DNA of 47,643 bases from an uncultured beta proteobacterium. Its GTDB lineage: Bacteria > Pseudomonadota > Gammaproteobacteria > Burkholderiales > Rhodocyclaceae. This document shows positions 8,787 to 27,145 of the stretch, in pieces (the stretch's first letter is position 1; each line of letters opens with the position of its first letter). A model generated the notes under the pieces. The model was not told the DNA's origin. It saw only the letters and a list, made by a program, of their open reading frames with translations, and did no database searches. The position numbers were made by a program, and so were the translations under genes. The stretch lies in NCBI GenBank assembly GCA_903959855.1, contig CAJBYR010000130.1:1-47643 (forward strand), written 5' to 3'.

Positions 8787-9838
8787 CAGAACTCCGGGTA
8801 CAAACGGCCGGGATTGAACACCCCGTAAGGGTCGAAGCTCTGCTTGAGCCGGCGATGGATTTCCATGAGGGCAGGCTGGAGCGGGGTAAACACGCCGGCC
8901 GACTTGTCGCCGCCACGGAACAGCGTGGCATGGCCACCGGCGCGTGTTGCAATTTCACGCATGCGCACAGCGTCGGCATCGCCCCGGGTCCAGCGCTGCG
9001 CGCCGCCCCATTCGATGAGTTGATCGCCGGGAATATCAAGTGGCGTAACGGCAGAAGGGACGGAAAGGCGCCAGAGCGGTGCCTCGCCGGAGAAGAATTC
9101 CGTGGCCTGCTCGCGCAAGCCCTGCCAGAAGGCAAGAGCCTCCGGCTCCGGGATCGACTCGCCACCCAATTTGACGCAGGCCGAGGAAACGGCGGCCTGG
9201 GCACCGGCAAGGCGCAGGGTCAGGACGCCGTCCTGCCAGCAGTTCGCCACCATCGGCAGCGGTTGGCCGGCCCAACGATTGAGCGCCTCCAGCGCCTTGT
9301 CCTGCGGCATCTCGAAACGCAGGCTGGCGTCGCCCGGCGGCACCGGCAACACCTTGAGCGAGACTTCAAGGATCAGGCCCAGGGTTCCCAGGCTTCCGGC
9401 AATCAGCCGCGAGACATCAAAGCCGGCGACATTCTTCATCACCTCGCCGCCGAAACGATGCACGCGGCCTTCGCCGTCCATCAGCTTCACGCCGAGAATG
9501 AAGTCGCGCAGGCTGCCGACCGCCGCCCGACGCGGCCCGGAAAGCCCGGCGGCCACCGCACCGCCCACGGTGGCCGCACCGAAGTGTGGCGGCTCGCAGG
9601 GCAGGCATTGTCGCCGTGCCGCCAGCGCCGACTCCAGTTCCGCCAATGGCGTACCGCAACGCGCCGTGATCACCAGTTCGGTCGGCTCATAATTGACGAT
9701 GCCGGCGTGCCCCGCCGTCTCAAGTACCTCGCCGCCATGCATGCCGCCGTAGAAATCCTTGCTGCCGCCACCGCGCAATCGCAGCGGCTTGCGTTCGAGG
9801 ATGCGGGCACGAAACGCATCGAGCCTGTCTTCACTCAT
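8786..9838 (-). CDS. glcE: Glycolate oxidase FAD-binding subunit
   Basis: A 350-residue flavin subunit of glycolate dehydrogenase. The N-terminal half is a PCMH-type FAD fold (LRGGGSKDFYGG, then PPHFGAATVGGAVAAGLSGPRRA and GEVMKNVAGFDVSRL), and the C-terminus ends in the usual SFDPYGVFNPGRLYPEF. Length equals E. coli GlcE (350). I use the ATG at 9838, which overlaps the glcD stop by one base (TGATG); a GTG directly before it at 9841 is also open. It is translationally coupled on both sides, as expected for a stoichiometric complex with GlcD and GlcF. Confidence 0.95.
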   Translation of the reverse strand: MSEDRLDAFRARILERKPLRLRGGGSKDFYGGMHGGEVLETAGHAGIVNYEPTELVITARCGTPLAELESALAARRQCLPCEPPHFGAATVGGAVAAGLSGPRRAAVGSLRDFILGVKLMDGEGRVHRFGGEVMKNVAGFDVSRLIAGSLGTLGLILEVSLKVLPVPPGDASLRFEMPQDKALEALNRWAGQPLPMVANCWQDGVLTLRLAGAQAAVSSACVKLGGESIPEPEALAFWQGLREQATEFFSGEAPLWRLSVPSAVTPLDIPGDQLIEWGGAQRWTRGDADAVRMREIATRAGGHATLFRGGDKSAGVFTPLQPALMEIHRRLKQSFDPYGVFNPGRLYPEF

Positions 9839-11340
9839 CACAGGCGCTCCAGTTCCGGAAATTTCAGATTACCGCCATGGACATGCATGCGTCCGAACTC
9901 GGCGCAACGATGCAAGGTCGGCACGCCCTTCTCGGGGTTCAGCAAGCCCTGAGGATCGAAGGCGCTCTTGACCGCGTGGAACAGGCGCAGTTCGTCGCTG
10001 CCGAACTGGTCGCACATCGAGTTGATCTTTTCATAGCCGACGCCGTGCTCACCGGTGATGGTGCCGCCAAGGTCGACCGACAACTTGAGGATCTCGGCGC
10101 CGAAGGACTCGGTGCGCTCCAGTTCGCCGGGCACATTGGCATCGTAGAGGATCAGCGGATGCAAGTTGCCGTCGCCGGCATGGAAGACGTTGATGCAGCG
10201 CAGGCCGTATTTCTTTTCCATCGCGGTGATGGCGGTCAGCATTTCGCCGAGGCGCTTGCGCGGAATGGTGCCGTCCATGCAGTAGTAGTCCGGCGAAATG
10301 CGCCCGGCGGCGGGGAATGCCGCCTTGCGCCCGGCCCAGAAGCGCAGGCGCTCGGCCTCGGAAGCCGAGACGCGGATCTCGGTGGCACCGCTGGTTTCCA
10401 GCACCGCCTTCATGCGGCCGATTTCTTCCGCCACTTCTTCCGCCGTGCCGTCGGATTCGCACAGCAGGATGGCGGCGGCATTCAGGTCGTAACCGGCCTT
10501 GACGTAGGGTTCGACCGCGGCTGTAGCCGGCTTGTCCATCATCTCCAGGCCGGCGGGGATGATGCCGGCGGCGATCACCGCCGCCACCGCCTCGCCCGCC
10601 TTCATGACGTCGTCAAAGCTGGCCATGATCACCTGCGCCAGCTCCGGTTTGGGCACCAGCTTTACCGTGACCTCAGTCACCACCGCGAGCATGCCCTCGG
10701 AACCGATGGCCAGCGCCAGCAGATCGTAGCCGGGTGCATCCAGCGCGGCATTGCCGATCTCGACGATCGTGCCGTTCATCAGCACGGCACGCACGCGCAA
10801 GACGTTATGCAAGGTCAGCCCATACTTCAGGCAATGCACGCCGCCGGAATTTTCGGCGACATTGCCGCCGATGGAACAGGCAATCTGCGAACTCGGATCC
10901 GGCGCGTAGTAAAGGCCCAGGGGCGCCGCCGCCTCGGATATCGACAGGTTGCGCACGCCCGGCTGCACCACGGCAACACGCGCCACCGGGTCGACATGAA
11001 GGATGCGTTTCATCTTGGCCAGGCTCAGCACCACACCCTGAGGATGCGGCAGCGCGCCGGCGGAAAGCCCGGTGCCGGCACCGCGCGGCACGATGGGCAC
11101 GCCGGCAGCGGCGCAGGCCTTGAGCACCGCAACCACCTGCGCCTCGGTTTCCGGCAGGGCCACGGCGATCGGCAACTGGTGGTAAGCGGAAAGCCCGTCG
11201 CATTCATAGGGCTTGAGGTCCTCGTCGACGTGCAGCAGGGAACTGGCCGGCAGGTGTTGCGCCAATTCGGCAATCAGCGCGGCGCGATCGATCCCGGAGA
11301 AATCCTGTGCAACGTCGGCAGAGTGTTCGCGCTGGTTCAT
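9838..11340 (-). CDS. glcD: Glycolate oxidase catalytic FAD subunit
   Basis: A 500-residue FAD-linked dehydrogenase (E. coli GlcD is 499) that oxidises glycolate to glyoxylate; D-lactate is a common alternative substrate in the family. The PCMH FAD fold is seen in PRGAGTGLSAGALP and SSQIACSIGGNVAENSGG, and the C-terminal cap carries the active-site region NVFHAGDGNLHPLI and GEHGVGYEK. The ATG at 11340 is chosen by family length; an extension to 11403 would run back into the upstream 104-bp repeat. The start has only a weak, distant GGAG. The repeat at 11359-11462 lies in its leader, so it could have its own control separate from the glycerate kinase gene. Confidence 0.95.
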   Translation of the reverse strand: MNQREHSADVAQDFSGIDRAALIAELAQHLPASSLLHVDEDLKPYECDGLSAYHQLPIAVALPETEAQVVAVLKACAAAGVPIVPRGAGTGLSAGALPHPQGVVLSLAKMKRILHVDPVARVAVVQPGVRNLSISEAAAPLGLYYAPDPSSQIACSIGGNVAENSGGVHCLKYGLTLHNVLRVRAVLMNGTIVEIGNAALDAPGYDLLALAIGSEGMLAVVTEVTVKLVPKPELAQVIMASFDDVMKAGEAVAAVIAAGIIPAGLEMMDKPATAAVEPYVKAGYDLNAAAILLCESDGTAEEVAEEIGRMKAVLETSGATEIRVSASEAERLRFWAGRKAAFPAAGRISPDYYCMDGTIPRKRLGEMLTAITAMEKKYGLRCINVFHAGDGNLHPLILYDANVPGELERTESFGAEILKLSVDLGGTITGEHGVGYEKINSMCDQFGSDELRLFHAVKSAFDPQGLLNPEKGVPTLHRCAEFGRMHVHGGNLKFPELERL

Positions 11341-11358
11341 GGCTGGGTTGTCTCCGCA

Positions 11359-11462
11359 GGGCCGCCCCAAGAATACAACATGACAATGACACGGAAGCCG
11401 CAACGCGGCTGAAACAGTGTCACCCCCTTCCTAGAGAAGGGGGCTGGGGGGAAGTTTGTCAT
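11359..11462. repeat. 104-bp two-hairpin intergenic repeat, copy A
   Basis: This stretch is related, without gaps, to 36800-36903. Shared blocks are the first 13 bases (GGGCCGCCCCAAG), an AGCCGC-N3-GCGGCT hairpin embedded in ACACGGA…GAA, a second hairpin built from C-rich and G-rich arms (CCCCCTT…AAGGGGG), a G-rich run, and the end TTGTCAT. The middle spacer differs. Both copies lie between two minus-strand genes. Here the outer end supplies the TGA stop of the glycerate kinase gene. It resembles REP/BIME-type dispersed palindromic elements; a structured leader for glcD is an alternative. Confidence 0.7.
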
Positions 11463-12739
11463 GGTTGTTCGATCAGGATGGCCCTGAAGTCATTGACGTT
11501 GGTGCGCGTCGGCCCGGTGACCACAAGGTCGCCCAGGGCAGAAAACACGCCATAGGCGTCATTGTCGACCAGCCGCGCGCGCAAATCAATTCCGTCGGCG
11601 GCAGCACGCGCCGGGGTGTCCGGCAGCAGCAGTGCGCCGGCATTGTCTTCCGACCCGTCGATGCCGTCGGTGTCGCCGGCAATGGCATGGATGCGCGCAT
11701 GGCCATTGAGCGTCAGCGCCAAGCCGAGCAGGAATTCCAGGTTGCGCCCGCCACGCCCCCGGCCCTTCACCGTCACCGTGGTTTCGCCACCAGAAAGCAG
11801 CACGCAGGGGCCGGCCAGCGGCACGCCATGCCCGGCGCAGGACAAGGCGATACCGCCCAGCACGCGCGCCACTTCACGCGCCTCGCCCTCGATGGCGTCA
11901 CCCAGCACCAGCGGCGTCAACCCCTGGCGGCGCGCCAGCTCGGCCGCCGCGGCGAGCGAGCCCTGGGCCGTGGCGATGATGTGCGATTCGCAGCGGGCAA
12001 AGCCCGGATCGCCCGGCTTGGGAGATTCGGCGGCGCCACTTTCCAGCGCGGCACGCGCCGCTGCCGGCAGGGCGATGGCGTAACGATCGACAATCTCCAG
12101 CGCATCGGCGCAGGTGGTCGGATCAGGCACCGTCGGCCCCGAGGCGATGGTCGAAAAGTCGTCGCCCGGCACATCGGAAATCGCCAGCGTGACTACACGG
12201 GCCGGTGCCGCCGCCAGGGCCAGCCGACCGCCCTTGATGGTCGACAGATGTTTGCGCACGCAGTTGATCTCGGCGATGTTGGCGCCGCAGGCCAGCAGCG
12301 CTTTGGTGAGCGCACGTTTTTCGTCCAGCGTGATGCCGGGCATCGGCGCCGCCAGCAGGGCCGAGCCGCCACCCGAGAGCAGCACCAGCACCAGATCATC
12401 GACGCCAAGCCCCTGCACCGCCTGCAGCAGCCGCTGCGCCGCCTTTTGCCCGGCGGCATCCGGTGTCGGATGCGAGGCTTCGACAACTTCGATGCGGCTG
12501 GTCGGCGCGCCGTGGCCGTAACGCGTGACCACGATGCCGGACAGTTGCCCGACATCGCCGCGCCAATGCGTCTCGACGGCACGCGCCATGGCCGCCGCCC
12601 CTTTGCCGGCGCCGACGATCACCGTGCGCCCCTTGGGTGGATCAGGCAGCCAGGCCGACAGGCAACGGGCAGGATCGGCCGCAGCGACGGCGGCATCGAA
12701 CAGATCGCGCAGCAGGGCACGCTGATGCAGAAAGCTCAT
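11459..12739 (-). CDS. ttuD: Glycerate 2-kinase, MOFRL/GckA-TtuD type
   Basis: A 426-residue cytoplasmic kinase of the GckA/TtuD (DUF4147 plus MOFRL) family, which phosphorylates D-glycerate, usually to 2-phosphoglycerate. Visible features are VGAGKGAAAMARAVE near the N-terminus, LLSGGGSALLAAP, the catalytic-region SDVPGDDFSTIASGPTVPDP, and the MOFRL part with LSGGETTVTVKGRGRGGRNLE and IAGDTDGIDGSEDNAGA. The start at 12739 overlaps the hydroxypyruvate isomerase stop by 4 bases (ATGA). With that isomerase it would carry hydroxypyruvate/tartronate semialdehyde carbon toward glycolysis; the semialdehyde reductase needed in between is not in the window. Its stop codon is provided by the edge of the 104-bp repeat, so the last codons may have been replaced when the repeat arrived. 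Confidence 0.92.
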   Translation of the reverse strand: MSFLHQRALLRDLFDAAVAAADPARCLSAWLPDPPKGRTVIVGAGKGAAAMARAVETHWRGDVGQLSGIVVTRYGHGAPTSRIEVVEASHPTPDAAGQKAAQRLLQAVQGLGVDDLVLVLLSGGGSALLAAPMPGITLDEKRALTKALLACGANIAEINCVRKHLSTIKGGRLALAAAPARVVTLAISDVPGDDFSTIASGPTVPDPTTCADALEIVDRYAIALPAAARAALESGAAESPKPGDPGFARCESHIIATAQGSLAAAAELARRQGLTPLVLGDAIEGEAREVARVLGGIALSCAGHGVPLAGPCVLLSGGETTVTVKGRGRGGRNLEFLLGLALTLNGHARIHAIAGDTDGIDGSEDNAGALLLPDTPARAAADGIDLRARLVDNDAYGVFSALGDLVVTGPTRTNVNDFRAILIEQP

Positions 12740-13512
12740 TGCCAGGGCGCCATCCAGGCAAAGCTGTCGCCGGTCGCGGCGCTCGGCTTGTATTCGCAGC
12801 CGACCCATCCGGCATAGCCGATGCGATCGAGGTGGTCCAGCAGGAACGGAAAATTGATCTCGCCGGTGCCGGGCTCGTTGCGCCCCGGATTGTCGGCCAG
12901 CTGGACGTGGCCGATGCGCGGCAACTTCTCCTGCAGGCTGCGGGCAAGGTCGCCCTCCATGACTTGTGCGTGATAGATGTCGTACTGCAGCTTCAGGTTG
13001 GCATGCCCGACTTTCTCGATCAGTTCGAGCGCGGCGGCGCTGGTGGCAACGAAAAAGCCCGGCGTATCGCGCGTGTTGAGCGGTTCGATCAGCAGTTCGA
13101 TGCCGGCGCGCTGCGTCACCGCAGCGGCGAAGCGCAGGTTCTCGACCAGGGTCTCGTGTGCCCGCTCGACGCGGACCTCCGGCGGCGCGATCCCGGCCAG
13201 GCAGTTGAGGCGCGGGCAGCCGAGCAGGCGGGCATACTCGAGGGCCAGCCCGACACCATCCTGGAATTCGGCAATCCGCCGCGGATGGCAGGCGATTCCG
13301 CGGTCCCCGGCGGCCCAGTCGCCGGCCGGCAGATTGAACAGGACCACCTCCATACCCGAGGTCAGCACCACCTCAGCCAGGGCGGCGCGATCGAAGGCAT
13401 AGGGGAAATGAAATTCGACGCCGCCAAAGCCTGCGGCCCGAGCCGCGCCGAAGCGTTCCAGAAACGGACGCTCCGTGAACAGGAAGGATAGGTTCGCGGC
13501 AAAACGGGGCAT
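12736..13512 (-). CDS. hyi: Hydroxypyruvate isomerase (TIM-barrel)
   Basis: A 258-residue xylose-isomerase-like TIM-barrel protein, exactly the length of E. coli Hyi, interconverting hydroxypyruvate and tartronate semialdehyde. It begins MPRFAANLSFLFTERPFLERF, and has the metal-site signatures IELLIEPLN, LQYDIYHAQVMEGD and GHVQLADNPGRNEPGTGEIN typical of the family. The open frame continues upstream to 13710, but that extension is encoded by palindromic repeat DNA and is rejected. As the first gene of the glycolate/glycerate operon its promoter must lie in or beyond the repeat array at 13525-13681. Confidence 0.94.
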   Translation of the reverse strand: MPRFAANLSFLFTERPFLERFGAARAAGFGGVEFHFPYAFDRAALAEVVLTSGMEVVLFNLPAGDWAAGDRGIACHPRRIAEFQDGVGLALEYARLLGCPRLNCLAGIAPPEVRVERAHETLVENLRFAAAVTQRAGIELLIEPLNTRDTPGFFVATSAAALELIEKVGHANLKLQYDIYHAQVMEGDLARSLQEKLPRIGHVQLADNPGRNEPGTGEINFPFLLDHLDRIGYAGWVGCEYKPSAATGDSFAWMAPWQ

Positions 13513-13524
13513 CGGGCGAGTATA

Positions 13525-13681
13525 TATGTCTCCGATGCTTCGCATCGGGGACGGTATCCCGGCGATATGTCCCGGCGCGCAAGCGTCGGGACGGTATCCC
13601 CTTGCGGGATATGTCTCCGATGCTTTGCATCGGGGACGGTATACCCTGTGGGGGCAGCCCCGAGAAAGGTCCGGGGAAGTA
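13525..13681. repeat. Tandem palindromic repeat array (three ~41-44-bp units plus tail)
   Basis: Three head-to-tail units begin with TATGTC at 13525, 13566 and 13610. Each holds one hairpin (CCGATGC-TTC-GCATCGG in unit 1, the same with TTT loop in unit 3, and CCCGGCGC…GCGTCGGG in unit 2), then GGACGGTAT and a second short hairpin of the form TATCCC…GGGATA. Unit 2 has a different stem that still pairs, allowing one G-T pair. After the last unit comes a tail with AAAGGTCCGGGGA. The same unit and tail recur at 19148-19222. The array fills most of the 282-base region between hyi and cytochrome b561; no gene is seen there. Confidence 0.8.
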
Positions 13682-13794
13682 CGGCGCCATTGTTGCAAAC
13701 GGGGCATCAATCATTTGAAGTCGCAGCTATTTCCCCATTGCCTTACGCCACGTAGAGTTGGGGGCTCGTCAATTCCATTGTTCCTGTCGGCTTT

Positions 13795-14370
13795 ATGAAC
13801 ACTCCGGCACACCCGCCTACCAGCTACACCCACACCGCCATCGCCCTGCACTGGTTGATCGCGATCGCGCTGACCGGCAGCTTCGGTCTCGGCCTCTACA
13901 TGCACGAACTGCCGCTTTCGCCGCAGAAGCTCAAGCTCTATTCCTGGCACAAATGGGCCGGCGTTACGATCTTCCTGTTCGTGATCCTGCGCCTGGTCTG
14001 GCGTCTCGGCCATCGCCCGCCGGCCTTACCCGTCCTGATGCCGGCCTGGCAACGCCTGGCGGTCGAGGCCACGCATGTGCTGCTGTACCTGCTGATGTTT
14101 GCCGTGCCGCTGTCCGGCTGGCTGATGAGCTCGGCCAAGGGCTTCCAGACTGTCTGGTTCGGCGTGCTGCCGCTGCCCGACCTGCTGAACAAGGACACGG
14201 AACTGGGCGACCTGTTGCAGCAGGTGCACATGATCCTCAACTTCAGCATGGCCGCTCTGGTGCTGGCGCATCTGGGCGCCGCGCTCAAGCATCACTTTCT
14301 GGAACGCGACGACGTGCTCACGCGCATGCTGCCGTTTCTTGCCAAGCCCACCATCGGAGTCCCTAAATGA
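13795..14370 (+). CDS. Cytochrome b561 family protein
   Basis: A 191-residue inner-membrane di-haem cytochrome b of the bacterial CybB type with four hydrophobic helices (about 15-35, 50-70, 90-112, 145-170). Candidate haem ligands are His in TAIALHW (H19), YSWHKWAG (H52) and the two C-terminal helices (QQVHMILNF, LVLAHLGAALKHH). Such proteins exchange electrons between ubiquinol and periplasmic acceptors. Its stop overlaps the first yceI start by 4 bases (ATGA), a common pairing in which YceI may carry an isoprenoid such as a quinone. Nothing in the sequence fixes the physiological partner. Confidence 0.93.
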   Translation: MNTPAHPPTSYTHTAIALHWLIAIALTGSFGLGLYMHELPLSPQKLKLYSWHKWAGVTIFLFVILRLVWRLGHRPPALPVLMPAWQRLAVEATHVLLYLLMFAVPLSGWLMSSAKGFQTVWFGVLPLPDLLNKDTELGDLLQQVHMILNFSMAALVLAHLGAALKHHFLERDDVLTRMLPFLAKPTIGVPK

Positions 14371-14930
14371 CTACCCGCCAAACCACGCTCGCACTGGGCG
14401 CACTGCTGCTCATTGCACCTGCCGCACACGCCATCGAATTCACCCAGTTCCAGCCGGCCAAAAGCTCGCTGTCCTTCGTCTCGAAGCAGATGAACGTGCC
14501 GGTCGACGGCCGTTTCAAGACCTTCCGCAGCAAGCTGGCCTTCGACCCGGCCAACCCCGCCGCCGCCAAAGCTGAACTCGAAATCGACCTCACCAGCATC
14601 GATGCCGGCTCCAGGGAGGCCAACGACGAAGTCGCCGGCAAACCCTGGTTCAACACCAGGGAATTTCCGGTCGCCAAATTCGTGTCGACCACCGTCAAGC
14701 CGCTGGGCGGCAATCGCTACGAACTCGCCGGCAAAATGAGCATCAAGGGCAAGACCCTCGATCTGGTCGCCCCGCTCACCGTAACGCAGGACGGCAACAG
14801 TGCCAGCTTCGACGGAGCGCTGGTGTTCAAGCGCGCCGACTACGGCATCGGCGACGGCGTCTGGGCCGACTTCGGCACCGTCGCCAACGAAGTCCAGATC
14901 AAGTTCCGCATCGTTGCCACCAGCAAGTAA
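14367..14930 (+). CDS. YceI family periplasmic protein (first copy)
   Basis: A 187-residue exported protein of the YceI lipocalin-like family, which binds polyisoprenoid-type lipids in an extended beta-barrel. It starts with a signal peptide (MTTRQTTLALGALLLIAPAAHA, cleavage about residue 22). The mature part shows the family pattern: FQPAKSSLSFVSKQMNVPVDGRF, AELEIDLTSIDAG, the strand FPVAKFVSTTVKPLG, and the end YGIGDGVWADFGTVANEVQIKF. It is translationally coupled to cytochrome b561 and followed 23 bases later by a second YceI. Its sequence is clearly different from the second copy, so they are paralogues rather than a recent duplication. Confidence 0.93.
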   Translation: MTTRQTTLALGALLLIAPAAHAIEFTQFQPAKSSLSFVSKQMNVPVDGRFKTFRSKLAFDPANPAAAKAELEIDLTSIDAGSREANDEVAGKPWFNTREFPVAKFVSTTVKPLGGNRYELAGKMSIKGKTLDLVAPLTVTQDGNSASFDGALVFKRADYGIGDGVWADFGTVANEVQIKFRIVATSK

Positions 14931-14953
14931 CCCAACCCACCCAGGAGAAACCC

Positions 14954-15520
14954 ATGAACAAGCTCATCATCGCCACCGCCCTTGCCGCGTTTTCCGCCAC
15001 CAGCCAGGCCGCGCCGGAAACCTTCGGCATCGAACCCACCCACACCTATCCGCGCTTCGAGTACAGCCATTTCGGCTATTCGAACCAGGTGCAGCGCTTC
15101 GACAAGACCAGCGGCAAGATCGTGCTGGATCGCGCCGCAAAGACCGGATCGGTCGATGTGACGATCGACGCCAAGTCGGTGAATACCGGCTATGCGCTGT
15201 TCAACCAGCACATCCAGGCCGAGGATTATTTCCATACCGAGAAATTCCCCACCATCAGTTTCAAGTCGACCGCCGTGAAATTCGACGGTGACAAGCCGGT
15301 GGCGATCGACGGCAACCTGACCATCAAGGGCGTGACAAAGGCGGTGACGCTGACCGTGACCAGCTTTCACGCCATGCCGCACCCGATGCTGAAGAAGGAC
15401 GCCATCGGCGCCAACGCGGTAACCAAGGTCAAGCGTTCGGATTTCAACATGGGCAAAAACGTGCCTTACGTCAGCGACGAAGTGACGCTTTCTATCTCCG
15501 TCGAAGCCGTCAAGGAGTAA
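14954..15520 (+). CDS. YceI family periplasmic protein (second copy)
   Basis: A 188-residue YceI protein with a signal peptide (MNKLIIATALAAFSATSQA, cleavage near residue 19). Family features are ETFGIEPTHTYPRFEYSHFGYS, VDVTIDAKSVNTGYALFNQHI, DYFHTEKFPTISFKSTAVKF, GNLTIKGVTKAVTLTV and the C-terminal FNMGKNVPYVSDEVTLSIS. An AGGAG site precedes the start. It is the third gene of the cytochrome b561 operon and converges with the unknown gene ending at 15540, with only 20 bases and no hairpin between them. Confidence 0.95.
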   Translation: MNKLIIATALAAFSATSQAAPETFGIEPTHTYPRFEYSHFGYSNQVQRFDKTSGKIVLDRAAKTGSVDVTIDAKSVNTGYALFNQHIQAEDYFHTEKFPTISFKSTAVKFDGDKPVAIDGNLTIKGVTKAVTLTVTSFHAMPHPMLKKDAIGANAVTKVKRSDFNMGKNVPYVSDEVTLSISVEAVKE

Positions 15521-15539: not shown

Positions 15540-16562
15540 CTACAGGGCGATCGTGCCGACCTCGTGCGAGAGCGCCTCGATGGCGCTCTCGTCCATTTCG
15601 AGCAGGCGTTTGGCCAGTGCGAGGAAATGCGCCGCCCCGGCGCCGGCCACCTCGGCAATCGCCCCAGCACCGGCACCAGACGCATAGGCCGCCACCAGTC
15701 GCGGAAACATCTCGCGGCGCAAGCCGTCGAAGGTGGCGAACCAGAAGTGCAAGGAATCCTCGCCGTCACGCGCCAGCAAGCCGGGCAGCGTGACCAGGCA
15801 ATCGGCCAGGTTGTCCTTCACCGCGCGGGCGAAGATCTCGGCGCGCTTGCCGCGCAGGCCGGCGAGCTTTTCCGACCAGGCGCCGCCGAGCAGCTGGCCA
15901 GCCGCCAGTTCCCCCTCCTCGTGCAGGATCAGGGTTTCGATCTCGCCTTCGGTCATGCGCTCGATCGCAGCCTGCGGATCGACATCGAAGCCATAGGCCA
16001 GCAAGGCCGACTTCAGGGCGCCGTCCTGCTGCTTCAGGTTCCAGCCGTCGGCCTTTTCCCACAGCCACTGGCGCAAGGCTTCGCGGCGCACGATCACGGT
16101 GCTGCCCTGCGAGGCAGCCGGAATCGCCGCCACGTCGCGCGCATATTCGCAGCCGCAGACCAGCAGGCGCGCATCACCGCGCCGCTCGTCGCGCGCCAGT
16201 TCGCCAAGGAAGAAATGCGGCTTGTGGAAGCGGCCGATGCCGGCGCCATAGACCAGGCCGCTGCCGGCCAGCGCGGCATTCACCGCTTCCGCATCGAAGG
16301 GATCCAGCGTCCTGCCGGCCACCGGCAGGTCAATGAAATCGCCATCGGCCATTGCATCCCAACGCGCCTCGCGCGCGGCGATCCAGCGCCCCACCTCCTC
16401 GCGCGGCGGCGCCACGCCGAAGGGCAGCTGGTGCTCCCAGCGGAAATACTCGCGCATGCCAAGCAGGTAGGTGCACAAGCTGACATCGCGCGCCTGGCGT
16501 GCATCGGCGATGTCGCAATTGGTCTGTACCGCGCTGACCAGCTCGGCCATGCCCGCGATCAC
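15540..16562 (-). CDS. Conserved hypothetical protein, Sfum_1244-like
   Basis: A soluble protein of about 340 residues without signal peptide or membrane helices. The N-terminus (NCDIADARQARDVSLCTYLLGMREYFRWEHQLPFG) resembles what I remember as the Sfum_1244 family of unknown function; this is a recollection and not verified. Cysteines occur at the N-terminus and in LLVCGCEYARDVA, a possible metal or cluster site. The C-terminal half is helical and acidic. I use a GTG at 16562, which overlaps the upstream stop (GTGA) and has GGGAG just before it; an ATG at 16550 is the alternative. It is the last gene of a five-gene operon that begins with the HTH-ferredoxin-reductase fusion. No function can be assigned. 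Confidence 0.72.
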   Translation of the reverse strand: MIAGMAELVSAVQTNCDIADARQARDVSLCTYLLGMREYFRWEHQLPFGVAPPREEVGRWIAAREARWDAMADGDFIDLPVAGRTLDPFDAEAVNAALAGSGLVYGAGIGRFHKPHFFLGELARDERRGDARLLVCGCEYARDVAAIPAASQGSTVIVRREALRQWLWEKADGWNLKQQDGALKSALLAYGFDVDPQAAIERMTEGEIETLILHEEGELAAGQLLGGAWSEKLAGLRGKRAEIFARAVKDNLADCLVTLPGLLARDGEDSLHFWFATFDGLRREMFPRLVAAYASGAGAGAIAEVAGAGAAHFLALAKRLLEMDESAIEALSHEVGTIAL

Positions 16563-17008
16563 GTCGGATCTCCCGCGTGGCGCCGGCGCCCCTTCCAGGC
16601 CGCGATGCCTTTGACGATCTCGGAATAGGGCAGCGCCTCCAGCGCACCGCACTGTTCCTGCGCCAGGCGCAGCAGGCGACGCACGTTGGGCGCCAATGCA
16701 TCCGGATCGAAGACACGCTTCATGCCGTCGAGACCACCGCACTGGATTTTCATCAGCATGGCGTGGGGCAGGATGCGCCGGGTATCGGTGACACCCAGCG
16801 CGAAGGCTGACTTTGCCCGCAGCATTTCCGACAATCTCGCACAACCGGCATGGGCCGCCGGTTGGGAGCAGGCCACGGTTTCGCGCTCGGCGATCTGGTG
16901 GCTGGCGGCGAGTTCGCAGACCGCATGACGCGCCAGCAAGGCGCGCTCAAACACGCAAGGCAGGCGGTTGATTTCGCCTTTCGCGTTGCGGTAGGCGGTC
17001 TCGTCCAT
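16559..17008 (-). CDS. Small cysteine-rich hypothetical protein
   Basis: A 149-residue soluble protein. Its N-terminal half holds four spaced cysteines (CVFERALLARHAVCELA…ETVACSQPAAHAGCARL), a spacing that could bind zinc or an iron-sulfur cluster, followed by LSEMLRAKSAFALG. The C-terminal half has one further Cys pair-like spacing (KIQCGGLDGM, QEQCGALEAL). No family name is known to me. It overlaps the next gene by 4 bases and follows the 77-residue gene by 5 bases, so it is certainly cotranscribed. A redox or metal-binding role is inferred from the cysteines and from the ferredoxin-domain protein in the same operon. Confidence 0.68.
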   Translation of the reverse strand: MDETAYRNAKGEINRLPCVFERALLARHAVCELAASHQIAERETVACSQPAAHAGCARLSEMLRAKSAFALGVTDTRRILPHAMLMKIQCGGLDGMKRVFDPDALAPNVRRLLRLAQEQCGALEALPYSEIVKGIAAWKGRRRHAGDPT

Positions 17009-17013
17009 CAGCG

Positions 17014-17247
17014 TCAGTAGTCCTCTCCGGTCGTGAAGTCTTCCTTCGGGGGCTGGTTGAGCAGGTCTTCCGCTTCGAGTTCGTTGGCGGCGAACATGGT
17101 CTTGATTGCGTCGCCGGGGCCGAGTTCGGTTTCGCGACGCAGGCGCTTGGCCTCGTTCGACGCCTCCTTGAAGGCATCGAACTGGGTGATCTTGCTCAGT
17201 TGCCGGATCGGGCCGGTCTGGGTAATGCGATAGATGTAATAAGGCAC
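17014..17247 (-). CDS. Small hypothetical protein (77 aa)
   Basis: A 77-residue acidic soluble protein beginning MPYYIYRITQTGPIRQLSKI and ending with an acidic tail (PPKEDFTTGEDY). The middle (QFDAFKEASNEAKRLRRE) is a predicted helix. I do not recognise a family. It sits between the LexA-like gene (4 bases away) and the cysteine-rich gene (5 bases away) in the same tight operon, which supports it being a real gene despite its size. Confidence 0.66.
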   Translation of the reverse strand: MPYYIYRITQTGPIRQLSKITQFDAFKEASNEAKRLRRETELGPGDAIKTMFAANELEAEDLLNQPPKEDFTTGEDY

Positions 17248-17251
17248 GGGG

Positions 17252-17620
17252 TTAGTCCACGTAACGTTTGCTGGCCCGGCGGCGGCCGGGTTGGGATTTC
17301 TGGATGATCACGCCCTTGACGGCGGCCAGATCGGGAATGTCTGCCGGCGGGTAGGCGGGATTCAGGGCGCGCAACTGCCAGGCCCCGCCCGCTTTCGCCA
17401 ACTGACGGAAGATCCATTCGCCTTCGAGCTGTGCGAGTACGAAAGAGCCATCGGTAGCCAAACCTTCAGGCTCGATCAGGATCACTTCGCCTTCACGGAA
17501 TTCCGGCTCCATGCTGTCGCCCAGCACCATCAGCGCGAAGGGCTCGGCGGCGGCGCAGGCATCCAGCGCCGGGTCGGCCGCCTGGGGCAGGATGGGGATG
17601 TGACGTCGGGCTTCGGCCAT
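17252..17620 (-). CDS. S24/LexA-UmuD-like protein without DNA-binding domain, altered catalytic lysine
   Basis: A 122-residue protein corresponding only to the C-terminal peptidase domain of LexA/UmuD/phage-repressor proteins (family S24). The nucleophile region is intact (LMVLGDSMEPEFREGEVILIE, Ser in GDSM). The segment where the general-base lysine normally lies (pattern E-V-T-V-K-R-L) reads EWIFRQL, so an arginine seems to replace it. The following part (LRALNPAYPPADIP) is typical of the fold. The start at 17620 leaves 4 bases after the upstream stop; a longer frame to 17911 is an overlap artefact. It may be a non-cleaving sensor or dimerisation module; self-cleavage activity is doubtful. 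Catalytic mapping is by eye. Confidence 0.8.
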   Translation of the reverse strand: MAEARRHIPILPQAADPALDACAAAEPFALMVLGDSMEPEFREGEVILIEPEGLATDGSFVLAQLEGEWIFRQLAKAGGAWQLRALNPAYPPADIPDLAAVKGVIIQKSQPGRRRASKRYVD

Positions 17621-17624
17621 GGCG

Positions 17625-19100
17625 CTACACGGCTTCCACATGAAGTTGAGCGGCAGGCAGGCCGGTGGCGCGCAAGGCCGCCTCGGCCGGCGCCAGCAGC
17701 GCCGCCGGACCGGCAAGGTAAACATCGCTGCCGGCGAGCGTGCTGTCAGCCGCCAGGGCGGCTTCGAGCCCGGCCAGATCCAGCGGCCGGTAGCTGAACT
17801 CGTCAAGCGCTGCCGCCCAGGCGCGACACTGGTTGGGCAGGTACTGGCCACCGGCCTGCGTCGCTGCCCAGTAGAGCGTGATCGACTCGGCGGCATCGAC
17901 GGCAATGGCATGTTCGATCAGGCTGTTGATCGGCGCGAAACCCTGGTCGATGGCGACGAAGACCAGCGGACGCGTCGATTCGCGCTGCAGCACGAAGCGG
18001 CCCCAGGGCCCCCAGGCGGAAACTTCGGCACCGGGCTTTATCAGGCCGGCAAACAGGCAGGCGGTGAAGTCGCCCGCCGCCTCGACCTGAGAGTCGGCGC
18101 TGGTGCTACGGCGAACATGGAAGATCAGGTTGCGGTCGTCGCAGGGACAACTCGCCACCGGCAGTTCGGCATGCAGGTCATCGCTGCTGGCGACACCCGC
18201 GGAAAGCCCCAGCGTCACCCGCTGCCCGGCCAGAAAGCGCAGGCGGTTACTGCGCGGCGTCTGCAGGTGCAGGCGCATCATGTCCTCGCCCAGGACATCG
18301 ACGGCACGCACTTTGGTGACGATGCGCTGCTCGGGGATGTCCTCGGGCAGGCCGGCTTCCAGCACCTCGATAACGAGATCGGAACTGTGCGCCGTGCAGG
18401 TGCACATCAGCACATGGTTCTGCGCCTTTTCGGCTTCGGAAAAATGGTAGTCAGAAGGCACAACGGCGCGGGCTTCGCCCGACACCACGCGCGCCTTGCA
18501 CAGGCCGCAGTTGCCGTTGCCACAGCCATAGTTGGGTGACAGGCCGGCACGCAGCGCCGCCTTGAGCAGGGTCTCCGAGCCTTCGACGAAGAACTCGTGC
18601 CCAGAAGGTTTGACGGTGACGTGGGCCGACATGACCCTCAGCATAGCATCGAGCGCGCGCAGGTCTTCCTGCGGCGCCGGTACCGATATGGCGCGGGCCA
18701 GGCCCTCGTCGAGGATACGTCCCAGTTCGGCGGCCAGCGGCCGCGGCAGGCTGGCCAACCGCGCCCGCAAGTCCTCGACCAGGCGGTGGTAGCGGGTCAG
18801 CGTGCGCTGCAGTTCGGCCAGCTCCTGCCCTTGTGCGAACAGACGCTGGGCCAGTGCCTCCTGCGAGGGCAGCACGCGCTCGCGCAGGCGCTTGGCAAAG
18901 GCATCCTCGCGAATGGCGCGGGTCTTCTCGAAACTGCCCGAGGCATCGAGGTCCAGCTGCGGCCAGGCACGCTGCAGGTCCTCGGCGTCCACCATGCCGT
19001 CAAACGAGGGCAGGTCACCTTCGCGGATGCGCTTTTGCAGGGTCACGCGCGATATGCCGAGAATGTGTGCGGCGCGTGAAAGGGTCAGCCATTGGGTCAT
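17625..19100 (-). CDS. HTH - [2Fe-2S] ferredoxin - ferredoxin-reductase-like fusion protein
   Basis: A 491-residue protein with an unusual order. Residues 1-47 form a MerR/excisionase-like helix-turn-helix (LSRAAHILGISRVTLQKRIREG). Residues ~55-155 are charged and helical, a possible dimerising coiled coil. Residues ~158-250 are a plant-type [2Fe-2S] ferredoxin with ligands C193, C198, C201 (CGNGNCGLC) and C233. Residues ~250-491 resemble an FAD/NAD(P)-binding ferredoxin-NADP reductase module (FLAGQRVTLGL, GPWGRFVLQ, and FVAIDQGFAPINSLIEHAI where a glycine-rich nucleotide motif is normal, so NAD(P) binding may be altered). The C-terminal two domains alone look like CDP-deoxyglucose or phenol hydroxylase reductases. 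The start at 19100 is preferred over a TTG at 19118. It heads a five-gene operon and is preceded by a palindromic repeat. A redox-responsive DNA-binding role is my inference. Confidence 0.86.
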   Translation of the reverse strand: MTQWLTLSRAAHILGISRVTLQKRIREGDLPSFDGMVDAEDLQRAWPQLDLDASGSFEKTRAIREDAFAKRLRERVLPSQEALAQRLFAQGQELAELQRTLTRYHRLVEDLRARLASLPRPLAAELGRILDEGLARAISVPAPQEDLRALDAMLRVMSAHVTVKPSGHEFFVEGSETLLKAALRAGLSPNYGCGNGNCGLCKARVVSGEARAVVPSDYHFSEAEKAQNHVLMCTCTAHSSDLVIEVLEAGLPEDIPEQRIVTKVRAVDVLGEDMMRLHLQTPRSNRLRFLAGQRVTLGLSAGVASSDDLHAELPVASCPCDDRNLIFHVRRSTSADSQVEAAGDFTACLFAGLIKPGAEVSAWGPWGRFVLQRESTRPLVFVAIDQGFAPINSLIEHAIAVDAAESITLYWAATQAGGQYLPNQCRAWAAALDEFSYRPLDLAGLEAALAADSTLAGSDVYLAGPAALLAPAEAALRATGLPAAQLHVEAV

Positions 19101-19147
19101 GGCCACCAATATAGCCAAGCCGGGCGCCGCCGCGATTCCAAAATTTT

Positions 19148-19222
19148 TATGTCCCCAACCGAAGGGCGGGGACGGTATCCCCTTGTGGGGTATGTCCCCC
19201 TCGAACCGGCAAAGGACCGGGG
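19148..19222. repeat. Palindromic repeat, second locus (one full unit, one partial, tail)
   Basis: A unit begins with TATGTCC at 19148 and again at 19191, a 43-base period. It contains GTCCCC…GGGGAC as the main hairpin, then GGTATCCCCTTGTGGGGTATG as the second palindrome, and the tail AAAGGACCGGGGA, matching the tail of the array at 13525-13681 (AAAGGTCCGGGGA). The stem bases differ from the first array but the pairing is kept. It lies between the end of the TonB-like gene and the start of the HTH-ferredoxin-reductase gene, in the same orientation relative to the downstream gene as the first array has to hyi. Confidence 0.75.
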
Positions 19223-19896: not shown

Positions 19897-22800
19897 TCAA
19901 TAGGCCTCGAATTCGCGCCACAGCCCACGTTTGCTCTGGAAGGTGTTCGATACGGCGGCAGCGGCGGCGACGGGGACCGACAGGGTTTCCTGCTTGTAGT
20001 CTGAACGGGTAGCAATCGCCTTGTACTCACCCGAAATCAGGCGGATCACCGTCAGGCCCACCACCAACGCGCCCGAGACCTTGGTCGAGGCAAATTCCTC
20101 AATCGCCAGGCCCGTCGCTGCATCAACTGCGGTAAACCAGGCGTTGCCACCGACGGTGCAGGCACTTGCCGACGGAATGTTGGAGGCGAAGAGCAGTGTC
20201 CCGCTGACAATGCGCGGATCGACGTTGACGCGCTCGCCCGAATCCGGAGAAACTGGAGCCGGGAAACGTGCAAACCAGCCGCCATGCACCGAGTAGTCAA
20301 GGGCGGTGGTATCCGCGCCGGTACAGGTGTAGGTAAGGTTGGGTGCCGAACCCGAAGAAGTCACCGTTGGCGTCGATCCGGCGCAAATTTTGCGGTGGAC
20401 GCTGATCACCCCATAGGAGTCAGTATGGGTGATTGGGTCGTCGTTCTGATCGACACTGATCAGCTTGCGCTCAAGGAACATCGGCTTGGTCGCATCGCTC
20501 GGCAGCATATCGGTGGTCGGATTCCAGGTGGCCTGGCTCGCTCCGCCCTTGTTCGCCGCGCCCATGGTGTCCTTGATGGCATAGACGGCCTGGATATCGG
20601 TATTGAGCAGATCACTCACTTCGAGATACTTACCGGTACCCACCATGATCAGGCGTACATCGTCCTGCAGGCGTGTCAGCTCGGGCTTGGTAGTGATCGG
20701 TTGCGGGACGCCTGCGTTTTCCAGGTGGGCCAGCTTGAACACCGCGCTGCCTGTATGACCCGTACCCGTTGGGTCCATGTCAAAGCGCCAGAGATCGCCG
20801 TTGGTGTCGCCCGCATACACGAACTGGGTGGTGTTGTTGGTTGCCGGACTATCGGCCCAGGGAGTGATCTTGCCCAGGTTGCTCGGGCTGCCGCCGGTGC
20901 CGGACAGATTCGAGATCGGGAATCCGCTCATCAACGCCGCGGTCCGTGGATTGATCGCAAACAGATGCCCGCCACCATCGCCGCCATTGGCCGTGTTGTT
21001 GTAGCCGGAGCTGAACATCACCGTCCATTCGCCGGTATGCAGCTTGGTGATGGCGACATTGGAATAGGTCTTGCCCAGATTGGCATGGCTGAACTCCCAG
21101 AGATACTTGGGGTTGGTCGGATCGGTGATATCCAGCGCGTAGTAGGAGGAACCGCCAGAACCCAGGCCACCGACCAGGATGGTGCGCCAGTCGTTGCTGC
21201 CGAAGTCGACATCGCCGACCGCGATCAGGCCGTCAACCAGGAAGCGGTGGCTGTAGTTGGCGTCGGCCAGCCACTTCATGTTCGCCATGGCCTCGGTCGG
21301 CGCGAATGCCCACATCTCCTCTCCCGGTCCCACCGGCGAGCCATTTACGCTGACATTCCCGGCATAGGCGTTGAAGGCATGCAGCATGCCGTCCTGCGAT
21401 GACACCACGACCAGAGGCTTGCGGCTGGCCTGGGCGGTCTTGAACGCCGAATATCCGGTGTCGGTATACGCGGCGCTGGGCGCCTTGATGAAAATCGGCT
21501 GGGTATTGACGATATCGCCCAGCACACGCGCACGGTTGCGCCACACCTGGGCGTGTCCCAATTCGCCGTCCTGCTCGTATTCACGATTGCCGCGCAGGAA
21601 GTCCACCAGATTGCTCGTCGTCATCTCCGGTACCGAGGCGATGCCACCCAGCGGACAGTACTGGCTCAGGTTGGTCGTCGGGCTGGGGTTGGCGGCGCCG
21701 ACGCAGGCATCCGGCCCGGGATTGAAATAAGCCCGCTCGGCCCCGCTCAGGTTGTCGTAGGTGAAGGCGCGCAGCGGATCGCCGGACGTTCCCGAACTCG
21801 GCTTGACGTAGATGCGCCGGGCCGACCAGGTTGTCGCTTCGAGCTTGGCCTGCGCCGACCATTGGCAGCCGTATTTGAAGGTACCGCTGCCGGAGACCAC
21901 CCCGGTATTGACCTGCGAGAGCGTGACGCCAAGACCGGAGATGGCGGTTACCACGGCACCGGTGGCAATGCCGGTGCCGGTCACGGCGGCACCGACGACG
22001 AGGTCAGTCGTATCGCTAACCGTGATGGTGGTAGCGCCCGAGGCACCACTAATCGTCTTCTGCACCCCGATGGCAGCACAGTTTGTCTCGGGCGACACGT
22101 CGCCGGTGGCGACGTTGATCGAACGCGACTGCAGGTCACCGACCCAGTCCTGGGTCTGGTAGCTGGCAACGTAGGCGAAGTTATCGCCCGGCACCGGCTC
22201 AAGGTTCGACGTTGCCGCCGCGGCGGCGGAACCTACCCGGGCACCGATTTTGTTCAAAGCCTCGCGCAGGCCGGCCACCACGTTGGGCACGTTGCGCGCG
22301 CTGAAATACTTGCCGCGCCCATTCACTGTGGCATGCCAGAGGTCGTCCACACCCGTCGGATCGAGGTTGGCAACCGCCGGCCAGTTCACGCCGCCAATAC
22401 CCTTGAGAATCGAATAATAGTCGCCGATCGTGGCCGTCTGATAGTCGGAGCGGTAGGCCAGTTTGCCTTCAATGCCCAGGCCCATGGCGAAAAAGTTCAT
22501 GTGCTGGGCGAGGTTCTTGTCGTCCGCGGTGGTCAACACATTGTTGGCCGAGACATCGGTACCCAATGCCCCGTTGGCGTTACCCAGCGCCGAGGTGCGC
22601 AGGTCGGTGCTGTAGTAATGGTAGGTGATATCGGCCAGGGTGCGGCAGGACAACGCGCCAGATCGGGTTGTACCACTCGCCGGGGTCGTACAGGTCGTGG
22701 ACGCCTGCTCGCCGTCGTAATACGGCCGTGCTGCCGTCAAAATGTTGTTGTCGGTATTGTTTATATCAGAGCCATCCACCTTCTTGATCGCGGTACTTTC

Positions 22801-25800
22801 AACTTCATTCCAGTAGCCGTCGGTCACCAGCAGCATGTAATTCTGCTGGCAGGAGTACTCGATCGGGTCCGGGTGCGCGGTGCTCACTGTCTGCTTCCCC
22901 GCGAAGTATCGGCCGATCTTTGCGGTTTCCGCACGCAGCGGCGTGGCGCAGGCGGGCGCTGCTTTGGTCAGACTGGTCCACCACGCGGTGCGATTGGCGC
23001 CGGTGAACTGGTTCACCGGGTTATCAACGGTCGTCCCGGTAGCCTGGCAGATATTGTCGAAGCCGACCCGGTAATTGCCGTCAAGCTGGTTGAATGCCAG
23101 TGTAGTGGCGGACTTCATCAACAGCATGCGGGTGCGGTAGTAGCTGTACCAGTTGGCAAAGTTCTGCATCTCTTCGGTGTAGCTGCAGGAACCGCCGACG
23201 CAGTCCGTGCGCGTCGAGGCGCGGTTGAAAGTGCGCCCGTCGTTCACGATGTCGACACGCTTGAAGATGCCGACCCCGGTCCAGCGGTTCGAGCCCACCA
23301 CTGGGGCAGAACCACCGTCCAAGGCGAGGACATTGGGCGAGGTACCCGTGGCATTGGTCGGTACGGCGTTCGATGAGGCCACGCCGCCATTCATATTGGT
23401 CGTGAGGGTACTGATCGGTCCGACCGTGGTGCTGGTGATCGGAGTGATTGTCGTATTTTGGCTTGGCGCGCCGCCTGAGAAGGGACTTACAGTAAACAGG
23501 TAGGGCGCGAAATTATCAACGGCGGTCGTACCCGAGCTACCGTTGGACGTCGCCGCCACGCAGTAACGCTTGGTCGGCACCGAGCCCACATCGCCTGCAG
23601 CGGCGCCCCCTGTCATGCTGATCGTGCTGTCGTGTGCGATGCGCATTGAGCCGGCCGGACAATCAAAATCCGCCGCCGTACAGGCATTCACCCCGACCGG
23701 GCCGGTCACGGTGCACGTGGAGCTTGGGGTGGTGCTGGTGGCCGTGGTACAGGACACGGTATAACTATTGATGTCGTTGGCCATCAGCGAGGTGGTCAGG
23801 TTATTGATCCGCGAAGACACCGGGTCGGCAGCTGCGGCACCGGTATTCACAGTTTCGGTTGTGATGGTATTGACCCCGCCACAGGTAATGCTGTTGATCT
23901 TTTTGGACAAGGTTGTGGCGTCGTTGATGCGGAAGTACCAGGTGGCCGACGCCGCCGTGGTTGGTGCCGCGGGACAAGTCTGGGTGACCGAGCTCTTGTC
24001 GTTGATGTCGATTGCGCCGTCATAGTCGAAGCTCAGGTTGGTACAGTTGGCTGCGGCCACCGGGCCGGTCACCGTGCAGGTTGGCTTATCTACGGTGGTA
24101 TCGCAGTCATAGGTATAGCCGTTGGCCCCGTTAGCTTCCAGTCCCGTTGCCAGCGCCTTCCGTCGAGGGGTTTCGTTATTGTTGGAACCCGAGGAGACCG
24201 TATCCACGGCGATGGTATTGACGCCACCGCATTTGATCGAGGCAATCTTCTTGTTCTTTTCGTCGGCGTCATCGATGTAAAAGGTCCAGGTCGGCGCGCT
24301 GATCGCCGCACATCCGGGCGAGCCACTGGACGTCTTGTTGTAGCTGTCGATAGTGATGCCCGACTCGTACGTCCGCACCAAGTCACCGGTACAGGCGCTG
24401 GCTCCGCTTGGCCCGGTCACGTAACAGTCCTGATTGTTCTGCGACCCCGTGTCGTAGCTGCACGAATAACTATAGCCATTGATGCCGGCGCCATTGAGGC
24501 CATTGGCGAGCGCCGTTGTGCACGTGAGGTTGTTGGTTCCGCAACCGCTGGTGGTGCCCGTGCTGGCATCGCTGCTCACAGCGTAGGCGGCACTGCAGCG
24601 TACGTAGTCGATGAGCTTGCTGTCACTACTGGCACCATTGATGCCGAATGACCATATCGGGCTCGACGAGACTCCGCCCGGATCGGACGGCCCATCGTTG
24701 AAGGTGAATGAAAGACCATTGTTGGCCGTTCCTACCGGCGCCGTAACCACGATGTTGTAAGTGCCGTCCCCGTTAGCGGTCGGAGCTGCCGCGGTGAACC
24801 CGTGGGTGCCGGTGCCGTTGTTGATCGCGGTGCGAATAGAGGTCGCGTTGTTCGAGACTGACGTGCCGTTGGTGATCGTGCCGGAATTGATGGCGGGTGC
24901 AATCGTGGTCGCGCTGACTTGAATCGTGCCGAGGTTGGCGCCGTAAGCATGCGTGGTGCTCGTCACCTTCATCGTTGCCGTCGCTTGTGCGCTGTTGGAG
25001 ACCACCGCGAGCGCACCCGTACAACCCGTGATCGTGACGGTATCCGAAAGCCCCGGTGCGGACGCCGAGCATCCTCCATTGCCATTGATCTTCGCAGCCA
25101 GACTGTCGGCAATCGCCGCCTGTTGGGTGCCATCGGCAATCGACAGGGCCGGCGCCGTCATGATCGATACGCCAGCCAGCGTCACGTCGCTGATGCTTGT
25201 CGCGCCTGCGGTCGAGTTGATCTGGATCGCGCCGGTACTGATGGTCGCCGCCGCCGGCCCGGTGACGCTGATTGTGGCATTGTTGTCGGTGGTGTCCTTG
25301 ATCATGCGCTGGATCATCACATAGGCCACATCCGGCGCGTCGCAAGTACCCCAGGCAGGAAGCGCACCGTCAGTCCCGGAACGCGCGGTGTACAGACTCG
25401 CGTTCGCCGCATTGCCGACAATACCGTTACAGATGCGTTGCGCGGTACTGCGCTCGTTGCCATCCGCGGTGACCGGCGCCGCCAGCAGTTCGACCTCGCT
25501 GGTGTCGGCGCGCTGGATCTTGATCGAGGTGATGGACAGGCCGGTGGTCGCACCGCCCGGACTCACGCTGATCTTGCCCTCGGCATTTGCTGCGCCCAGA
25601 TTGATCGGTCCGAGGGCCAGTACCGGCAGGCCGTTCGAGGCTGTACCGACGGCGGCTGCCTGTATTGTGACGCGATTATTGCTCACCGAGCAGGCATAGC
25701 CCGTGGTCCCGGTATTGGCCTGGATCGCGGTACAGACATTGGTCGCGATGGTGTTTTGATCGCCCCCGGTCGAGGTGAAGGTCTGGCCGCCGACGATGTC

Positions 25801-27114: not shown

Positions 27115-27145
27115 GATGGCACCTCGGTGCGGTTGCGGCTTCATG

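Follow-up and report, generated by a model that had tools for sequence, protein, structure and literature searches.

Organization of the five-gene operon

The subject of this analysis is a run of five co-directional open reading frames (ORFs), here called A to E, on the minus strand of contig CAJBYR010000130.1, from an uncultured beta proteobacterium of the Rhodocyclaceae (GenBank assembly GCA_903959855.1). The whole stretch of 47,643 nucleotides that was analysed is referred to as the window; genomes, loci, contigs and genera are numbered with the letters G, L, C and g, the window's own genome being G000. In the ORF list of the window the genes run from 19100 to 15540, with gaps of 4 (A/B), 4 (B/C) and 5 bases (C/D) and a 4-base overlap between D and E, which confirms the five tightly packed genes at 15540-19100 that an earlier reading of the letters alone (the sequence-only reading) had reported. 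The parts are as follows.

Gene A, 17625..19100, minus strand: 491 amino acids (aa); helix-turn-helix (HTH) N-terminus, middle region, [2Fe-2S] ferredoxin domain and divergent ferredoxin-reductase-like C-terminus
Gene B, 17252..17620, minus strand: 122 aa; stand-alone Peptidase_S24 fold
Gene C, 17014..17247, minus strand: 77 aa, GTG start, no family match
Gene D, 16559..17008, minus strand: 149 aa, Cys-rich, no family match
Gene E, 15540..16562, minus strand: 340 aa; Sfum_1244 (NF045620) / DUF6866
Promoter-like region, 19101..19155, minus strand: CATAAAAATTTTGGAATCGC at 19132-19151 and GCTATA at 19110-19115

The 20-base element upstream of A is A/T-rich and is accompanied by a GCTATA/GCTATG box; both look alike among 12 sequences from the window's genus, with flanks that vary. 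The gene packing, together with this one conserved promoter-like element, suggests that A to E are cotranscribed.

Conservation of the gene order

The operon is real and conserved. A search for E with NF045620 across 297 genomes of the window's family (the family set) found it in 59, and it was present in 4 of 299 genomes drawn from the phylum, the window's own among the 4. No E relative was found among candidate stretches of viral contigs, and neither E nor c10 (an insert gene described below) had a relative on plasmids. Gene order was then scored at 61 loci, comprising 60 fetched neighbourhoods and the window, using iterated profiles started with the window proteins (or, for insert genes, with the proteins of L042/L088). 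All five genes stand in order at 35 of the 61 loci, 25 of them in compact form and the other 10 interrupted between A and B by an insert, and B-C-D-E are in order at 44; in the window's genus, all 12 loci have the compact A-B-C-D-E arrangement. C was present in 52 of the 141 loci searched, window included. The 35 ordered loci include one from another family, G246, with the full set. A wider scan, restricted to the best 80 of 440 E relatives and biased toward the query's kin, added L164 with the full set and L169 with A, C, D and E but no B. The proposal of the sequence-only reading that the five genes form one system is therefore supported by gene order, and the neighbourhood comparison that it called for places the set outside the family, so the genes are conserved as neighbours beyond the species group. 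E stands alone at 9 of the 61 loci, among which L043 and L080 have fewer than 50 bases upstream. Several lone-E genomes carry A elsewhere (G219, G385, G416 and, in split form, G375); in G416, A-B-C lie at the end of another contig.

In some genera, additional genes either separate A from B or lie upstream of B. The insert consists of genes for a MoxR-like AAA ATPase, a DUF2201 protein (a putative metallopeptidase plus a VWA domain), the 340-aa protein c10 and often the 82-aa protein c20. Genera g2 and g198 have it, as do single genomes from g159, g161, g170 and g202. In the wider loci L140 and L174 the MoxR, VWA and c10 genes are again near E, which is an independent link of E to this set. The arrangement resembles the MoxR AAA+/VWA pairs NorQ-NorD and RavA-ViaA, which belong to a kind of chaperone pair that matures metal enzymes. 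NorQ/NorD are reported to insert iron into nitric oxide reductase, and RavA/ViaA to act together with fumarate reductase (PMC9976466, PMC13036017, PMC10585395). The likeness has its limits: no MoxR/VWA genes are present in the window's own operon, and the client here is only a candidate. The protein c10, found in 12 of the 21 genomes searched, was considered as a candidate for DsrS, which we could not confirm; because its gene is ~80 kb from dsrA in T. denitrificans RG (G594) and far from dsrA in G219, we leave it unnamed.

Co-occurrence with dsrA

Distribution offers the strongest clue to the pathway that the operon serves. We used dsrA, standing for dsrAB, as the marker of Dsr sulfur metabolism. 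In a first test of 35 genomes we counted matches over the cut-off, as all 35 give some match at an expectation value of <= 0.001 (other sulfite reductases). In that test, dsrA was over the cut-off in 23 of 24 E-carriers and in 3 of 11 E-free genomes; in the remaining E-carrier, G368, dsrA is split over two contig pieces. Extended to the family set, the count was 55 genomes with both genes, 4 with E only, 12 with dsrA only and 226 with neither, that is, dsrA in 55 of 59 E-carriers versus 12 of 238 genomes lacking E (3 of the 67 dsrA matches are fragments under the cut-off). The four exceptions with E only (G429, G486, G500 and G593) are 59-85% complete. Counted by genus, 15 have both, none has E only, 5 have dsrA only and 48 have neither, so that all 15 E-genera are dsrA-genera and none of the 48 dsrA-free genera has E; g159 and g168 each also hold one genome without either gene (G304 and G313). 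The association has p = 5.9e-43 by genome and 3.5e-11 by genus, both values ignoring relatedness.

The pattern extends beyond the family. Among 40 genomes taken from the 80 wider E loci, many of them draft metagenome-assembled genomes, dsrA was found in 36 (34 over the cut-off), versus none of 16 E-free controls, which were complete genomes from the window's order. As a comparison we used soxB, a marker of another sulfur route, which is present in 119 of the 297 family genomes. Genomes with soxB but without dsrA carry E in 2 of 59 cases, those with dsrA but without soxB in 4 of 7; as the tracked pathway, soxB was rejected as the weaker candidate (odds ratio 23, versus 259 for dsrA). Protein A was counted in 32 genomes, and only where the match begins at the HTH end with an expectation value of <= 1e-40; it was present in 9 of 19 genomes with dsrA and in none of 13 without, with partial or split matches in G446 and G375. 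Taking the link by itself, the operon is very probably tied to sulfur oxidation by reverse dissimilatory sulfite reductase (rDsr).

Proximity to dsr genes

In several genomes the two sets of genes are also physically close; gene names at dsr-region loci were read by eye wherever a family search is not mentioned. In G246, dsrA, B, E, F, H, C, M and K lie on one strand (DsrK at 587 bits, cut-off 400), followed by other genes, among which the one at the DsrL position encodes an NAD(P)-binding protein. On the opposite strand, divergent from dsr, are genes for a Cas6-like protein, a DsrC-like protein, a 201-aa protein (P201) and P299, and then directly A-B-C-D-E, downstream of which are a TusA-like gene and genes read by eye as YeeE-like, DsrE2-like and SoxY-like. 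One report states that dsrEFH type I typically accompanies oxidative dsrAB (PMC13293266); the presence of dsrEFH in G246 therefore points to the oxidative type. The five genes are not part of the Allochromatium vinosum cluster dsrABEFHCMKLJOPNRS, as far as the available published description goes, but E co-occurs with that rDsr pathway, and in G246 A to E adjoin dsr. Elsewhere dsrA is 6.1 kb (L175), 7.7 kb (L167), 8.4 kb (L174), about 10 kb (G375) or 10.2 kb (L118) from E, and in G597, the genome of L174, dsrAB, E, MoxR, VWA and c10 lie within about 17 kb. Any of 12 dsr-region proteins was matched in 24 of 140 loci.

The dsr region of the window's genome is on contig C332, where dsrABEFHCM is divergent from genes for a Cas6-like protein, two TusA proteins (TusA-TusA), a DsrC-like protein, P201 and P299. 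P201, which had no Pfam or NCBIfam match, is encoded alongside dsr in G246, G366, G375 and the window's genome, and at 19 of the 80 wider loci a relative of it (26-33% identity) is no more than 3.5 kb from E. On contig C332 (L192) P201 is encoded beside dsr at 11827-12432, together with a TauD-like protein at 10935-11834.

Some further features of the dsr regions may be recorded here. The gene divergent from dsrA at L192 13285-13974 encodes a Cas6/Cmx6 homologue (TIGR02807, 130.9 bits, cut-off 98.85), with no direct repeats of >= 20 bases in the 10.8 kb around it. Relatives of it are beside dsrA in G246, G366, G375, G597, L118, L167 and L175, and no paper on this pairing of Cas6 with dsrAB was recognisable by title in the literature searched. 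An imperfect inverted repeat, GGTAGGT...TTACCT, was seen by eye upstream of dsrA near 14200 of L192 and in G366 (L213/L214), and could possibly be an operator. A molybdopterin oxidoreductase of 970 aa, confirmed by family search, is encoded near dsr in G246 (L193 1095-4007), and a 957-aa look-alike, seen by eye, is upstream of A in G315 (L068); that these might be the sulfite-oxidizing SoeA is a guess.

Domains and conserved residues of the five proteins

Protein A combines an HTH end with redox domains. The family search gave Fer2 at 51.9 bits (cut-off 21), HTH_8 at 22.2 (cut-off 22) and HTH_17 at 25, slightly under its cut-off of 27; the middle region has, by eye, the look of a coiled coil. 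In 27 sequences the cysteines of a [2Fe-2S] motif (C193, C198, C201 and C233) are invariant, as is the stretch S317-C318-x-C320-D321-x-R323-N324-L325. With its ferredoxin domain and reductase-like C-terminus, A can be likened to ferredoxin reductases of the BenC/MmoC type, but it scores far under the equivalog cut-offs (91.1 bits for BenC, cut-off 430) and has an additional HTH and middle part. It is probably an electron carrier. The flavin motif of such enzymes, RxYS, is altered in A.

For B, Peptidase_S24 (67.1 bits) was the sole family found in its 122 aa, and LexA/UmuD family matches were weak. The protein aligns with the S24 autoprotease domain of the LexA, lambda CI and UmuD kind over the catalytic Ser region, with Ser31 in 52 and Cys17 in all 53 of the sequences compared. 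Unlike those proteins, B showed no N-terminal DNA-binding half in the family search of its 122 aa, and all 53 sequences have an Arg (Arg67) at the position aligned with the Lys of lambda CI, so that no Ser-Lys dyad of the LexA type is found. Ser31 and Arg67 stand where the catalytic Ser and Lys of lambda CI and LexA do. Because Arg67 occupies the Lys position, self-cleavage of B is unlikely. The LexA-like protein of the sequence-only reading thus stands as regards the S24 fold, and falls as regards the DNA-binding half and the catalytic Lys.

In D, C18, C31, C47, C56 and H82 are present in 50 of 50 sequences and C90 in 49, residues that would plausibly form a metal or Fe-S site. Its AlphaFold2 model has a predicted local distance difference test (pLDDT) value of 87.6, and Foldseek, which may miss remote folds, returned no solved match at an expectation value of <= 0.001.

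Protein E belongs to Sfum_1244 / DUF6866, a family that has no assigned function, matching NF045620 at 412.3 bits (cut-off 150) over profile positions 2-328 of 339; the name Sfum_1244 presumably refers to Syntrophobacter. No paper naming either Sfum_1244 or DUF6866 was found in the open-licence literature, with spelling variants unmatched. Invariant residues in 77 sequences include N15-C16, D20, C30, H214-E215-x-G217-E218, E242, R246, D250 and D254, and these His, Glu, Asp and Cys residues resemble what would be expected of an enzyme or metal site rather than of a regulator. The AlphaFold2 model (pLDDT 96.2) had no PDB match by Foldseek at the same threshold, and a sequence search returned no PDB relative; the fold is possibly new.

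A possible role in the reverse Dsr pathway, and its alternatives

Sulfur oxidation by reverse Dsr is a main route of sulfur cycling, and we propose that A to E are probably an undescribed helper set for it, and not a stress-response system. No paper recognisable from its title or the start of its abstract as describing these genes was found in the open-licence literature. What is observed is that the genes stay linked, that they co-occur with dsrA and in several genomes adjoin dsr, and which domains and conserved residues the proteins have; from this we infer a function in electron transfer and in assembly or repair, as well as its target. Taken as a whole, the statement that the operon is an accessory module of rDsr with a role in electron supply, assembly or repair has, in our judgement, an even chance of being correct. 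How the proteins would work can be sketched more tentatively, as a possibility of somewhat lesser weight. Electrons would flow from the [2Fe-2S] cluster of A to E and the Cys-rich D, both of which would help with the assembly or repair of DsrAB or its partners, or hold them in the reduced state, the targets being siroheme and [4Fe-4S] sites or the thiols of DsrC; B and C would be binding or regulatory partners. A carrier such as A, a Cys-rich D, the metal-like ligands of E and the MoxR/VWA genes together fit the maturation or repair of a metal enzyme, for which DsrAB, with its siroheme and Fe-S clusters, would be the obvious client. No paper was found that has reverse dissimilatory sulfite reductase together with MoxR (open-licence literature, spelling variants unmatched). 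A more specific version is rather doubtful: that A to E, joined where they occur by MoxR, VWA, c10 and c20, make up an apparatus devoted to building or repairing the siroheme/[4Fe-4S] sulfite reductase of sulfur oxidation, or the thiol protein that partners it, E being a metal- or cofactor-handling protein fed by A, with a fold not among solved structures.

A number of observations weigh against a helper role of this kind. Physical proximity is exceptional: the search of 140 loci turned up DsrA at 5 (L037 of G246, L118, L167, L174 and L175), E and dsrA are 23-180 kb apart where they share a contig in G352, G315, G347 and G423, and the dsr genes of the window's genome are on a contig other than the window. 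In 73 of the 80 wider loci, many of them shortened by contig ends, A to D are absent near E, so that E either acts without them or they lie elsewhere; G484, 99% complete (L215), keeps A-B-C-D and dsrA and has no E. Of 7 E-carriers searched for A, 3 (G480, G420 and G373) gave no match at an expectation value of <= 1e-40, and c10 was not found in G000. The pathway is also found without the operon, since 12 of the 67 family genomes with dsrA have no E, 7 of these 12 being >= 90% complete, and soxB also accompanies E, in 53 of 59 E-carriers. Finally, with the RxYS motif not kept, NAD(P)H oxidation by A is unproven.

Redox regulation of dsr by A is the strongest competing explanation. Here the operon would be a redox-responsive regulatory cassette in which A is a DNA-binding [2Fe-2S] switch of dsr or related genes, B a LexA-fold regulator that does not cleave itself, and D and E modulators. 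The HTH at the N-terminus of A, the conserved Cys of A and D and the S24 fold of B agree with such a cassette, and co-occurrence with dsrA fits it equally well. We nevertheless hold it to be unlikely: the CATAAAAATTTTGGAATCGC element was not seen by eye in two divergent dsr intergenic regions, the MoxR/VWA insertion suggests maturation, the HTH of A could be structural, and the most widespread member, E, appears to have the invariant residues of an enzyme or metal site. Alternatively, E and D might act directly in sulfur-carrier chemistry, releasing or transferring sulfane sulfur ahead of DsrAB, with A serving as reductase. The invariant Cys in E (C16 and C30) and D would suit this, as would the TusA-like, DsrE2-like and YeeE-like genes after the operon in G246, the latter two read by eye; known carriers (DsrEFH, DsrC and TusA-like proteins) are already encoded in the window's genome, however, and neither D nor E matched a sulfurtransferase family, which makes this reading distinctly improbable.

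Stress response or general redox signalling, which the sequence-only reading had raised as a possibility, does not hold up well. The S24/LexA-like fold and the ferredoxin parts are what a general stress or DNA-damage/redox stress operon might contain, but E was found almost only in genomes with dsrA, Arg replaces the catalytic Lys in every B sequence, the co-occurring pathway is Dsr sulfur oxidation, and apart from the weak LexA/UmuD matches of B there was no match of A to E to a stress family. On the residue in B and the distribution of E, we rejected a main role in stress, and regard it as very improbable. The least probable reading is that the operon belongs with the glycolate-oxidation-like genes that follow it at window 7545-13710. 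These are on the same strand and are frequent downstream neighbours (cluster 4 at 29 and cluster 6 at 23 of the 61 loci), yet such genes were not seen by eye beside E in G246 or G597, and in the window they are separated from the operon by two YceI genes and one for cytochrome b561 that lie on the opposite strand. As neighbours within the family only, they gave no ground for keeping this reading.

For the rDsr accessory role, then, the analysis provides concrete gene candidates. It ties five genes with no role assigned so far, and in some genera at least four further genes, to the rDsr pathway, and with them the nameless family Sfum_1244/DUF6866. The accessory genes of this pathway are only gradually being sorted out: an article of 2011 described DsrL, DsrR and DsrS as unresolved (PMC3368242), and DsrR was later said to take part in regulation (PMC11406059).

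Neighbouring genes

At window 7545-13710 lie genes for FAD oxidases and an Fe-S protein, which are glcDEF-like by eye, as well as for a DUF4147/MOFRL kinase and a xylose-isomerase-like protein. In G484 (L215), isomerase-like and glcD-like genes directly follow A-B-C-D. The cytochrome b561 gene and the two YceI genes lie on the plus strand beyond E, at window 13795-15520, with identical placement in the 11 other loci of the window's genus. On the other side of the operon, window 19897-27144 holds a 2415-aa ORF that looks PilY1-like.

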